Shown: in pieces, positions 20,012-23,805 of the stretch
How positions within the stretch are numbered: position 1 is the stretch's first letter
Layout of the letters: the number at the start of each line of letters is the position of its first letter
From: a virus
Virus record (IMG/VR): IMGVR_UViG_3300030107_002727
Coordinates: 1 to 35,445 of that record
DNA length: 35,445 nucleotides
Direction: 5' to 3' (one strand)
Notes under the pieces: model-generated
Database searches by the model: none
The model's input: only the letters and a program-made list of their open reading frames with translations
Told to the model about the DNA's origin: nothing
Translations under genes and position numbers: made by a program

Positions 20012-20160
20012 TGACTACTCCAAACTGGCAACACCACTCGAAGAAAGAACCGAAACGCAGTCTGAAACCACAGGCACTGCGACAAGCAAAATATAGAAGA
20101 AAAGCACTCCTAAAGAAGATTAGGGGTGCTTCTTCTTTGTCAACACTTATATGGAGGTAA
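20008..20160 (+). CDS. Possible basic microprotein overlapping gp46 end
   Basis: Fifty codons beginning with ATGATG that overlaps the gp46 stop in an ATGA arrangement. The product is very basic (NWQHHSKKEPKRSLK, then RQAKYRRKALLKKIRG) and could bind nucleic acid. A terminator-like hairpin (20102-20138) sits inside its 3' end, which argues either that the gene ends within a terminator or that the frame is fortuitous. I lean to a real gene because of the coupled start and the protein-like composition. Confidence 0.5.
   Translation: MMTTPNWQHHSKKEPKRSLKPQALRQAKYRRKALLKKIRGASSLSTLIWR
20102..20138 (+). terminator. Terminator-like hairpin after gp46
   Basis: Arms AAGCACTCCTAA (20102-20113) and TTAGGGGTGCTT (20120-20131) pair over 12 bases with one G-T wobble around AGAAGA, followed by CTTCTTT. 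The T tract is broken by C bases. Confidence 0.7.
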
Positions 20161-20162
20161 AA

Positions 20163-20327
20163 ATGCCAAAGACTTATCATATATACTTAGATGATAGATG
20201 TTTGTTCAAGAATTTGAATGATGATGAGTTTAGGGTAGTGTGGGGAAGACTTTATCATTCTTATTGGGATGGTCTTACTTATTCTGAGTGTGAGGAGAAG
20301 CAATACGATCTAGAGCCCAGTTATTAA
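20163..20327 (+). CDS. Small acidic conserved microprotein
   Basis: A 54-residue protein beginning MPKTYHIYLDDRCLFKNLNDDEF, with WGRLYHSYWDGLTYSECEE in the middle. It has an excellent ribosome binding site, GGAGG at 20153-20157 six bases before the ATG. I remember similar short proteins with an HVYL-x-D-x-C-L opening in cyanomyoviruses; none has a known function. It lies downstream of the gp46 terminator and 66 bases before the VWA gene. Confidence 0.7.
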   Translation: MPKTYHIYLDDRCLFKNLNDDEFRVVWGRLYHSYWDGLTYSECEEKQYDLEPSY

Positions 20328-20393
20328 AGTGGCACAGTCATTTCCCATAGAGGTGATTTCTTTTGTATTATAGGTTTATACGAAAGAAACTTC

Positions 20394-22610
20394 ATGCCAG
20401 TTAATTTTGATATTAAAGGACAGTTAGCTAAACTCCTTGCCACAGAAGATTTAATTATTGAGAATAAAAAGGTTCAGACAGCCTCATTTAATGTGGGAAC
20501 TCGTGTATTAACCTTACCAATGTGGGATAAAGCAACCAACAATGTATATGATCTGTTGGTTTCTCATGAGGTAGGACATGCACTCTTTACACCAGATGTT
20601 GATTGGTCTATAGAGAATCCAATGCCACCTCAGTTTGTAAATGTATGTGAGGATGTAAGAATTGAGAAGTTGATGAAGCGTAAGTATATGGGTCTTGCTA
20701 AAACATTTTATAATGGATATAATGAACTGAGTGATGATGATTTCTTTTCTATAGAAAATGAAGATATTGATAATTTTAATCTTGCTGACCGTATTAATCT
20801 ACATTTCAAGATTGGTAACTTCGTTGATATACCTTTTTCAATTTCTGAAAAGAAAATTGTGGATTTAGTTTCTAATACAGAAACATTTGAAGAGGTATTG
20901 AAAGTATCTAAGATGCTTTATGATTACTGTAAAGAAGAGAATGATAAAAATAATGAAAGTGGAAGTGGAAAAAATGAGCAAATTTCATCTGAAATGGATG
21001 AGGATTCAATAGGTGAAAGTTCTGAAAAGAATACTGATGAGATGAGTGATAAAGAATTACTTGACCTTTTAGAAAAAGGATTGGAAGGAGGTGAGTCGGA
21101 ACGTCCTGATTTGGGTGAAGATGAAACTGAATATGAAGATGATTTAGAAGAAGATATGGAGGATTTTCCAGTATTAGAAAATTCTACACCCACTGAACCA
21201 GAAGTTCAAACTGCAAATTCATTGGATAGTAAATTAAAAAATCTTCTTTCTGATGATAGAGTTGCTAATGAATATATTGAGATTCCTGAATTAAATCTTG
21301 ATACAATTATAAGTAAAAATGATGATATACATTCATATATTAATAAAGTATTCAGTGACTTTGTTAATGATGTTAAAGATACTGATGAGTTAGAACATCC
21401 TTATTATGATCATCGTATAACTTTTGAGGAAGTAGATGGTGATTATAGAAATTTTAAAAAATCAGCACAAAAGGAGGTTGGGTATCTTGTTAAAGAATTT
21501 GAATGTAGGAAAGCAGCTGACAATTATTCTCGTTCTGCTACAAGTCGCACTGGGATTCTCTCTACAGAAAAGCTTCATACATATAAATTCAATGAAGATC
21601 TTTTTAAGAGAGTTAATGTTGTCCCTGATGGGAAGAACCACGGATTAATATTCATATTAGATTGGTCTGGTTCTATGGGTAATATCATGGAAGATACTAT
21701 TAAACAATTATATAATTTAATATGGTTTTGTAAAAAAGTTTCTATTCCATTTCAAGTGTATGCTTTTACACAAGAATATAGAGGGGATGGTCCTGGTTAT
21801 TATGGAAGAGATGAAAAACTCTCAGAACATTATGAGGCAAAAGATAATTTATTTCTTATAGATAGTAGATTTTCATTAATGGAGTTTTTTACTAGTGATG
21901 TTTCTACCAAGGTATTAGAAGAACAAATGAAGAATATTTGGAGAGTAGTAGCAGGATTGAGATCTCGTACTGTTTATCCATATCCTGTTCGTTTATCTCT
22001 TTCTGGAACTCCTTTAAATGAAGCTCTCATTTCTTTACATAAAATTATTCCTTATTTTCAGAAGAAGAATAAACTTCAAAAAGTTCAATGCGTAGTTCTT
22101 ACTGATGGTGAAGCAAATCATATTCCATGTCATAAAACAGTTCAACGTCATTGGGAGAATGAGACTTATCTTGGTTCTAGAGGATTACATCCATTAAAAG
22201 ATTATCTAAGGAATAGAAAGACTGGATGTACTTATAAAGTACCTTCGGCATGGTTTGAGTTTACTAGCATCCTTTTGAAAGATTTGAAAGATACTTTTCC
22301 TAATGTTAATTTTATTGGTATACGTATTTTAGAACCTCGTGAAGCAACACATTTTATCCGTAGATATAATGGATATACTGATTGTGAATCAATAATAAAA
22401 AGATGGAGAAAAGATAAATCATTTTCTTTAGAACTTACTGGATATGAAAAATATTTTGGATTATCTTCCAATGCTTTGAATGAAGAAACTGATTTTGAGG
22501 TAAAAGAAGATGCAACTAAAGGACAGATAAAGAGTGCTTTTGTTAAGTCTCTTAAGAATAAAAAGATCAATAAAAAGGTTTTAAGTGAGTTTGTGGATTT
22601 AATAGTATAG
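20394..22610 (+). CDS. HExxH metallopeptidase-like / von Willebrand A protein (CobT-like partner of CobS)
   Basis: A 738-residue protein. N-terminal domain has SHEVGHALF with HEVGH at residues 58-62, a zinc-peptidase signature, followed by NVCEDVRIEKL (86-90) that may supply a further acidic ligand. Residues about 185-275 are a highly acidic, disordered linker. The C-terminal domain is a von Willebrand A fold with the MIDAS motif DWSGS (423-427), a SGTPLNEAL threonine motif and VVLTDGEA. This is the layout of CobT-type partners of MoxR/CobS AAA+ ATPases, and a CobS-like gene follows immediately. In cobaltochelatases CobS/CobT drive metal insertion by CobN; no CobN is present here. Antisense frames at 20924-21193 and 22232-22570 are shadows. 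Confidence 0.88.
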   Translation: MPVNFDIKGQLAKLLATEDLIIENKKVQTASFNVGTRVLTLPMWDKATNNVYDLLVSHEVGHALFTPDVDWSIENPMPPQFVNVCEDVRIEKLMKRKYMGLAKTFYNGYNELSDDDFFSIENEDIDNFNLADRINLHFKIGNFVDIPFSISEKKIVDLVSNTETFEEVLKVSKMLYDYCKEENDKNNESGSGKNEQISSEMDEDSIGESSEKNTDEMSDKELLDLLEKGLEGGESERPDLGEDETEYEDDLEEDMEDFPVLENSTPTEPEVQTANSLDSKLKNLLSDDRVANEYIEIPELNLDTIISKNDDIHSYINKVFSDFVNDVKDTDELEHPYYDHRITFEEVDGDYRNFKKSAQKEVGYLVKEFECRKAADNYSRSATSRTGILSTEKLHTYKFNEDLFKRVNVVPDGKNHGLIFILDWSGSMGNIMEDTIKQLYNLIWFCKKVSIPFQVYAFTQEYRGDGPGYYGRDEKLSEHYEAKDNLFLIDSRFSLMEFFTSDVSTKVLEEQMKNIWRVVAGLRSRTVYPYPVRLSLSGTPLNEALISLHKIIPYFQKKNKLQKVQCVVLTDGEANHIPCHKTVQRHWENETYLGSRGLHPLKDYLRNRKTGCTYKVPSAWFEFTSILLKDLKDTFPNVNFIGIRILEPREATHFIRRYNGYTDCESIIKRWRKDKSFSLELTGYEKYFGLSSNALNEETDFEVKEDATKGQIKSAFVKSLKNKKINKKVLSEFVDLIV

Positions 22611-22629
22611 GACAGTTAAAAAACTGTCC
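22610..22629 (+). other. Perfect hairpin overlapping the VWA gene stop
   Basis: GGACAGTT (22610-22617) and AACTGTCC (22622-22629) form an 8-base stem with an AAAA loop; the last base of the stop codon is the first base of the stem. No T run follows, so it is more likely an RNA stabiliser, a weak terminator or a protein site than a standard terminator. Confidence 0.6.
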
Positions 22630-22642
22630 CATTCCATTACCA

Positions 22643-22671
22643 TTGACATCATATTTCTATTATAATAAAAT
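22643..22671 (+). promoter_or_regulatory. Sigma-70 early promoter of the CobS-like gene
   Basis: Consensus TTGACA (22643-22648), 17-base spacer and TAAAAT (22666-22671), which overlaps a TATAAT at 22661-22666. The predicted start site leaves about 12 bases before the ATG at 22690, with no Shine-Dalgarno. Confidence 0.7.
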
Positions 22672-22689
22672 CATTGAAACAAACACATT

Positions 22690-23805
22690 ATGACTGCTCC
22701 ATTTGAATTAAAGATGACTGAACAACAAGCATATGACGGATTAAAGAAACAGTTTGGCACCGAGTTTACAGCTCCTGAAGTTCGTGCATTCTGTGCTATG
22801 AATGATATTGCTTATCAGACTGTTACTAAAAAGATTAAAAAATATAATGTTGGTAAAGGTAAATGGAATCTTACAGTCACTAAAACAGATGTAAAGAATA
22901 TAGAAAAAGCATATAAAGCACCTGCTGTTAATCCTTCTAGTCATAATCTAGTTCCAAGTAAAGATGATACTTATGTAAAATTTGGTAATTTTAATGATGT
23001 TAAAAAGATTATTCAATCTAAGCAGTTTTATCCTACATTTATTACAGGTCTCTCAGGAAATGGTAAAACTTTTGGAGTAGAACAAGCATGTGCACAACTA
23101 AATAGGGAGTTAATTCGTGTTAATATTACGATAGAGACGGATGAAGATGATCTCATTGGTGGGTTCCGTCTGGTTGACGGTAATACCGTATGGCACAACG
23201 GACCAGTTATTGAAGCTCTCAATAGGGGAGCAATCTTGCTTCTTGATGAAATCGACCTTGCCAGCAATAAAATCCTCTGCCTCCAACCCATCCTTGAAGG
23301 AAAAGGAATCTTCCTCAAAAAAACTGGAGAGTTCGTCGAACCATCAAAAGGATTCAATGTCATCGCAACAGCAAACACTAAAGGTAAAGGTTCAGACGAC
23401 GGAAGATTTATTGGAACTAACGTGCTTAATGAAGCCTTTCTTGAAAGATTTCCAGTAACATTTGAGCAAGAGTATCCATCTCCAAATATAGAAAATAAAA
23501 TCTTAGGTGGTATTGCTGCTAAGTTAGGTGTTACTGATACTGATTTCTGTAAGAGATTGGTTGATTGGGGTGATATTATCCGTAAAACATTCTATGATGG
23601 TGGGATTGATGAAATCATTAGTACTCGTCGTTTAGTTCATATAGTACATGCATATTCTATTTTTAAGAATAAAGAAAAGGCAATTGCTGTATGTGTAAAT
23701 CGTTTTGATGATGAGACTAAACAAGCATTCCTTGAATTATATGATAAGGTTGATGCTGACTTTGTATTTGACAAAGCAGAAGATAATGCTTATAATGAGG
23801 ATTGA
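22690..23805 (+). CDS. cobS: CobS-like MoxR-type AAA+ ATPase
   Basis: A 371-residue AAA+ ATPase. N-terminal 90 residues form a small helical domain; Walker A GLSGNGKT at 120-127, DEDDLIGGFRL after a beta hairpin, Walker B AILLLDEIDLA (181-191), sensor ANTKGKG near residue 229 and NEAFLERF with the arginine finger near 253. Annotated as CobS (cobaltochelatase subunit, cobalamin synthesis) in cyanophages I remember. Together with the upstream HExxH-VWA protein it resembles a MoxR/VWA chaperone pair. The Walker core at 23141-23400 uses many C-ending codons unlike its flanks. It has its own promoter. Frames at 23141-23458 (+) and 23028-23378 (-) are shadows. Confidence 0.9.
   Translation: MTAPFELKMTEQQAYDGLKKQFGTEFTAPEVRAFCAMNDIAYQTVTKKIKKYNVGKGKWNLTVTKTDVKNIEKAYKAPAVNPSSHNLVPSKDDTYVKFGNFNDVKKIIQSKQFYPTFITGLSGNGKTFGVEQACAQLNRELIRVNITIETDEDDLIGGFRLVDGNTVWHNGPVIEALNRGAILLLDEIDLASNKILCLQPILEGKGIFLKKTGEFVEPSKGFNVIATANTKGKGSDDGRFIGTNVLNEAFLERFPVTFEQEYPSPNIENKILGGIAAKLGVTDTDFCKRLVDWGDIIRKTFYDGGIDEIISTRRLVHIVHAYSIFKNKEKAIAVCVNRFDDETKQAFLELYDKVDADFVFDKAEDNAYNED

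Follow-up and report, generated by a model that had tools for sequence, protein, structure and literature searches.

The stretch analysed here (the window) is 35,445 nucleotides long and corresponds to positions 1 to 35,445 of IMG/VR virus record IMGVR_UViG_3300030107_002727. It is part of a T4-like phage contig, an IMG/VR record of 37,377 bp, and carries two neighbouring genes, the first encoding a metallopeptidase-VWA (CobT-like) protein of 738 amino acids (20394..22610) and the second a MoxR/CobS-type AAA+ ATPase of 371 amino acids (22690..23805). Both genes, and the features of the pair described below, lie on the plus strand, and their coordinates and sizes are as given in the initial annotation. 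The profile matches cover the full length of both proteins, the first matching phrog_459 (E 2.6e-261; 463 phage records) and the ATPase phrog_249 (E 5.4e-137). The existing labels are peptidase for phrog_459, porphyrin biosynthesis for phrog_249 and cobS for the ATPase of cyanophages. The pair itself is not new (PMC7824862; PMC8651126; PMC3037559). Cyanophage cobS has been listed as a core gene (Sullivan et al., 2010) and among vitamin B12 auxiliary metabolic genes (PMC10452541; PMC10665884), and it has been used as a community marker with a stated host origin and a function noted as unknown (PMC9983427). In the literature, no usable statement was found on when the two proteins are expressed or whether virions contain them, and neither matched an anti-phage defence family in PADLOC.

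The 738-residue protein is built of an N-terminal domain, a linker and a VWA domain, and the motifs reported in the initial annotation are all present. The N-terminal domain contains HEVGH at residues 58–62 (20565..20579), a predicted zinc site, followed by N83 and the E86-D87 pair (20640..20654), in which E86 is predicted to serve as the third zinc ligand. The acidic linker (residues ~190–270; 20961..21203) is probably disordered, since its predicted local distance difference test score (pLDDT) is below 50 over most of residues 191–265. The VWA domain (residues ~416–659; 21639..22370) is modelled as an alpha/beta fold with pLDDT mostly above 90, and its metal ion-dependent adhesion site (MIDAS), DWSGS at residues 423–427 (21660..21674), belongs to a run from D423 to M428 that is invariant in 78 sequences. 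The best PDB fold match of the whole protein is chain G of the NorQD complex, which is NorD, over the VWA part. A GxLxxxKL-type motif lies 36 residues ahead of the MIDAS in 77 of 78 relatives; the spacing is the same in other phage families and is 38 residues in CobT. In the window protein this motif reads GILSTEKL (residues 387–394; 21552..21575) and is predicted, by its conserved pattern and the precedent of NorD, to be a VWA finger that enters the AAA+ pore. The low confidence of this stretch in the single-chain model is what would be expected if it were ordered only inside the pore.

The ATPase is complete, as initially annotated, with intact Walker A (GLSGNGKT, residues 120–127; 23047..23070) and Walker B (ILLLDEID, residues 182–189; 23233..23256) motifs, a sensor-1-like ATAN, C-terminal arginines, and Pfam matches to AAA_5 (E 2.6e-18) and CbbQ_C. 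In a tree whose deep branches are unresolved and whose long branches were flagged, the cyanophage ATPases make up a separate clade, which lies beside CobS and outside the CobS clade. The window pair has the arrangement that characterises MoxR AAA+/VWA pairs, an ATPase of the MoxR clade next to a VWA partner whose MIDAS is intact. The N-terminal part of the ATPase (22690–23010, TAPEVRAFCAMNDIAYQTVTKKIKKY...) appears helix-turn-helix-like by eye and has no Pfam match. A transfer of the ATPase gene from host to phage was considered and rejected, since neither CobS nor CobT was found in 101 host-family genomes and the phage enzymes group separately from CobS.

Zinc site and fold of the N-terminal domain

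Of 118 IMG/VR loci, 114 extend to the N terminus of the protein, and every one of these has the HExxH motif. Residues H58, E59, H62, N83, E86 and D87 are unchanged across 78 aligned cyanophage-type proteins, and are also invariant in a set of 68 N-terminal domains that includes 27 distant phage domains with 15–22% identity to the window protein. In this distant set the median alignment column has no identity to the window protein, and ten residues, including the four expected of the zinc site, are fully conserved. Multiple alignment programs tend to stack motifs, but HExxH can also be read directly in the unaligned sequences, where it is kept in nearly all distant phage families. Judged from these sequences, the conservation of HExxH exceeds chance. 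In two CobT-like proteins, from Pseudomonas phage phiK7B1 and from an Acinetobacter plasmid, the motif is replaced by DSEISK and DQEVAK, respectively (L037:2442-4526 and L125:2995-4917), while their relatives keep HExxH; these proteins are natural variants without the zinc site.

The AlphaFold2 model places a small beta sheet ahead of a helix (residues 49–65) that contains HEVGH, with E86 in the next helix (residues 79–97). This is the gluzincin-type layout of an HExxH helix and a downstream helix with a Glu ligand, in a model with a zincin-like fold. Modelled alone, the N-terminal domain has a pLDDT of 87.6 and a predicted template modelling score of 0.83. In a Foldseek search against the PDB its top twelve matches are all zincins (including selecase, ArdC, abylysin and jannalysin), with probabilities of up to 0.99; against viral models, phage CobT/VWFA proteins come first and SprT/IrrE-type metallopeptidases next. 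The motif thus falls inside a helix of a zincin-like predicted fold, not outside one, in agreement with the zinc site proposed in the initial annotation. Both the sequence tests and the model favour a zinc site that is predicted to be intact. A profile search of the PDB returned no solved sequence relative for the 738-residue protein. The best PDB fold matches of the domain, the minigluzincins and selecase, have weak E-values, and they differ from it in being small stand-alone peptidases without a VWA or AAA+ partner.

By way of other phage families, sequence comparison links this domain to cobaltochelatase subunit CobT. Phage proteins of one type (L245) align with CobT over nearly the whole length (hhalign probability 100%, E 2e-48), with phage RGYVDHEAGH opposite RGLGDSMALR and phage ALEDIWLE opposite AVEQARVE, so that the N-terminal domain of CobT is without HExxH and keeps the Glu. 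Two HExxH-bearing phage proteins, scoring 54.4 and 29.9 bits, also exceed the cut-off of 26.1 bits for PF06213, the family of this CobT domain. From this alignment and these Pfam matches, the CobT N-terminal domain most likely shares an ancestor with the phage zincin domain. The direct comparison of cyanophage and CobT N-terminal domains is not significant alone (hhalign probability 7%, E 0.005), and for the phage-plasmid set the probability fell from 69% with five sequences to 1.7% after enlargement, so the link rests on the L245-type proteins and the Pfam matches. All the CobT sequences compared are proteobacterial, and the zinc site may have been lost in CobT rather than gained in phages. 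The earlier view of the peptidase motif as an extra fused onto an ordinary CobT does not hold, since the N-terminal domain of CobT itself occupies this place and appears to be a form without the zinc site.

DUF2201 (PF13203/PF09967) proteins resemble the window protein in having an HExxH domain, a VWA domain with DTSGS and, in most loci, an adjoining ATPase-sized open reading frame. Profile comparisons detect no homology between the two groups (hhalign probability 0.1–6%, and ~1% for the cyanophage family), and the DUF2201-associated ATPases fall in a separate clade. DUF2201 was accordingly rejected as the parent family: the architecture is similar, but there is no PF13203 match and no profile support. 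Some cyanobacteria (L267-L272) carry DUF2201 proteins with HExxH and VWA parts, mostly with an adjoining ATPase-sized reading frame, and convergence is possible.

Distribution and gene neighbourhood

The metallopeptidase-VWA and ATPase genes co-occur almost strictly. The ATPase gene is found nearby downstream in 103 of 118 cyanophage-type IMG/VR loci, and in the other 15 the sequence ends within 1.9 kb. The counts of isolate records by organism name are identical for both genes (365, 61 and 24). Intervening genes are frequent, yet the pair stays neighbouring, and the two genes also occur together in other phages; the survey called for in the initial annotation thus found no routine separation. 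The pair belongs to the cyanomyovirus core, being present in nearly all large cyanophages, and also occurs in unrelated phages and phage-plasmids. CobT-like relatives were found on 966 plasmid records, mostly from Klebsiella, Escherichia, Acinetobacter and Enterobacter, and the ATPase gene follows the CobT-like gene in all three plasmids examined. Genes for an integrase, a sigma factor or DnaE are located close by, which suggests that such plasmids are phage-plasmids. Most of the 966 records are ~110 kb long and non-mobilizable (L124, L125 and L126 are examples). Scans of viral contigs for proteins of the Ochrobactrum type and of the type found in Vibrio phage MJW gave no matches. A superficially similar pair, in which an AAA ATPase of a Staphylococcus kayvirus and of Acinetobacter phage AM24 is followed by a DUF7192 protein (L040:4707-6682 and L041:4479-6692), was set aside as different because the DUF7192 neighbour is without HExxH or DxSxS.

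In the window, terminase, sheath, portal, scaffold and capsid genes precede genes for a UvsW-type helicase, gp47 and gp46, which are followed by the pair (20394-22610 and 22690-23805) and by genes for a DUF3310 protein, gp45, gp44 and DNA polymerase. The pair is thus flanked by gp46 and gp45/gp44, in the same place as the cyanophage core pair. Among cyanophage-type loci with enough flanking sequence, 63 of 71 carry gp46 ahead of the pair and 54 of 60 carry gp45 or gp44 behind it. The phage-plasmid type has a recurrent order of CobT-like gene, ATPase gene, sigma factor and DnaE. In phiK7B1 a DNA ligase gene precedes the pair and DnaE follows it, while a primase and a polymerase gene follow the pair in phage MJW. 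Replication and recombination genes beside the pair in most lineages examined suggest a role around replication rather than in virion assembly.

The initial annotation also described a hairpin and a promoter between the two genes, and suggested that the ATPase can be made alone. Both elements are real and are conserved in the closest relative (L002). A stem-loop with an 8-bp stem (22610..22629; -11.1 kcal/mol) lies directly after the stop codon of the first gene, and a promoter-like TTGACA-17-TAAAAT with 11 of 12 consensus bases (22643..22671) lies ahead of the ATPase gene. The hairpin is without a T run and is therefore no canonical terminator, while promoter-like matches are not in excess in this AT-rich stretch (22 observed vs 19.3 in shuffles), so that the promoter count is within chance. 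Across other relatives the intergenic gap varies from an overlap to 4 kb, with a median of 271 bp, and independent control of the ATPase is therefore not general.

Other features of the locus lie outside the gap. A perfect sigma-70-type consensus (TTGACA-17-TATAAT, 12/12) at 23768-23796 lies close to where the ATPase gene ends, ahead of the genes for the DUF3310 protein and gp45. A terminator-like hairpin of 12 pairs with a T-rich tail is found downstream of gp46 (20102-20131), within a stretch without an obvious gene (20012-20393); at the equivalent place, P-SSM2 has a 2-oxoglutarate-Fe(II) oxygenase and an HNH endonuclease. A metagenome-assembled genome labelled Gammaproteobacteria (L139) has a near-identical psbA, and is probably a case of contamination or a phage/cyanobacterial contig.

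Function of the pair

On balance, we think it somewhat probable that the pair is a MoxR-type AAA+/VWA remodeller whose VWA subunit bears a gluzincin protease, and that it acts around phage DNA replication or recombination, not in cobalamin synthesis. In such a complex the ATPase would assemble as a hexameric ring, and the VWA subunit would dock on this ring with its finger (~387–394) in the pore, by analogy with NorQD, where the finger of NorD has been placed in the NorQ pore. The VWA MIDAS, the N-terminal domain or both may then grip a client protein, which would be remodelled by a twist of the VWA domain relative to the linker, driven by ATP turnover. The zinc site of HExxH and E86 would finally cleave the exposed chain. 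A pull-and-cut action of this kind is suggested by the protease domain, which would sit at one leverage point. The target is most likely a specific phage or host protein around DNA replication or recombination, and the machine would be active at that stage of infection. The photosystem or chelatase targets named in the initial annotation fared less well: nothing points to them, and the pair is also found in phages of non-photosynthetic hosts, mostly beside replication genes.

Several observations weigh against this reading. The best Foldseek E-value of the N-terminal domain is weak (0.043), and zinc coordination and proteolysis by the pair are predicted functions, drawn from sequence and model. 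HExxH is lost in phiK7B1 and in the Acinetobacter plasmid protein, and the MJW protein has Val where the third ligand is expected, so that the zinc site is not always needed. In Gordonia phages the genes adjoining the pair have no recognised function, and the replication context is therefore not universal. To these is added the published proposal of a role in virion assembly, discussed below.

The same gene pair has been described as viral CobST of tailed viruses, including cyanophages, in an account in which the peptidase label is called mistaken (Liu et al., 2021, PMC8651126). It proposes that the pair stands in for the ChlI/ChlD-type partner of a borrowed host CobN and increases both cobalt insertion and the supply of cobalamin, which a B12-dependent ribonucleotide reductase, for instance, could use. 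CobS and CobT (TIGR01650/TIGR01651, PF06213/PF11775) are likewise AAA+ and VWA subunits to which the phage ATPase and VWA part are related. CobN, whose survey in hosts had been proposed in the initial annotation, was found in six picocyanobacterial genomes, and CobT and CobS were not found in the 101 genomes of the picocyanobacterial host family; a borrowed CobN is thus conceivable in cyanobacteria and harder to envisage elsewhere. The pair occurs on E. coli plasmids, yet the E. coli control genome has no CobN, and, as the initial annotation had it for the window, of nine records of phages or phage-plasmids that carry the pair none encodes CobN. Against the CobS equivalog TIGR01650 the ATPase reaches 67.4 bits, far below the cut-off of 558.55; the phage ATPases fall outside the CobS clade, and the 738-residue protein has no match to the CobT equivalog TIGR01651 at E 0.001. 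Four of the six phages tested carry the small subunit of a class I ribonucleotide reductase, an enzyme that needs no vitamin B12. The phages keep HExxH, whereas CobT is without it, and this zinc-site evidence contradicts the view of the peptidase label as mistaken. Together with the equivalog misses and the absence of CobN from those nine records, it supports the doubt, raised in the initial annotation, that the pair simply supports cobalamin synthesis, and we regard the cobalt-insertion proposal, although already in print, as unlikely.

A chaperone or protease that matures or folds structural proteins is about as improbable, in our estimate. It follows the report of a MoxR and metallopeptidase-vWA chaperone pair in group 2.2 jumbo phages, for which virion assembly was proposed (Iyer et al., 2021, PMC7824862). 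That account, given in outline only and for jumbo phages only, likewise describes a MoxR ATPase adjacent to a vWA protein whose N-terminal domain is a metallopeptidase, and is compared here by its description. A viral MoxR-VWA precedent exists in p618/p892 of the Acidianus two-tailed virus (ATV), which are linked to tail development. Gene context, which is indirect evidence, argues otherwise: in cyanophages, in the phage-plasmid type, in phiK7B1 and in MJW, the pair is surrounded by genes of replication and recombination and not by structural ones. A remodeller of metal sites without proteolysis, in which HExxH would bind a metal ion or hand it on and the AAA+/VWA motor would open up the client, would follow the action of NorQD on nitric oxide reductase. 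The closest solved machines, NorQD and CobNST, do insert metals, and NorQ/NorD is likewise a MoxR ring with a finger-bearing VWA protein that is the best PDB match for the VWA part. NorD differs in its N-terminal domain, however, and the metal inserted is iron. E59, the kind of Glu that catalytic sites typically have, does not vary across the 68 domains, and CobT works without HExxH, so a purely metal-handling role seems more doubtful still.

What the present analysis adds is a weighing of the published accounts, which are in conflict: one holds that the partner was wrongly called a peptidase (PMC8651126), the other gives it a metallopeptidase domain (PMC7824862). From sequence comparison and modelling, the peptidase label is supported, the kinship with CobT holds as well, and the B12 role is the weakest element. 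With a zinc site invariant in phages and absent from true CobT, the conflict becomes directly testable. Tentatively, and at somewhat less than even confidence, we propose that cyanophage cobS is no B12 gene, that the pair is an uncharacterised type of ATP-dependent metalloprotease, combining MoxR ring, VWA finger and gluzincin and acting around replication in unrelated phages, and that CobT is a relative in which the zinc site was lost and which came to serve metal insertion. If the protease reading is true, a widely used metabolic label would fall, a new type of ATP-dependent protease would be added, and CobT would gain an evolutionary history.

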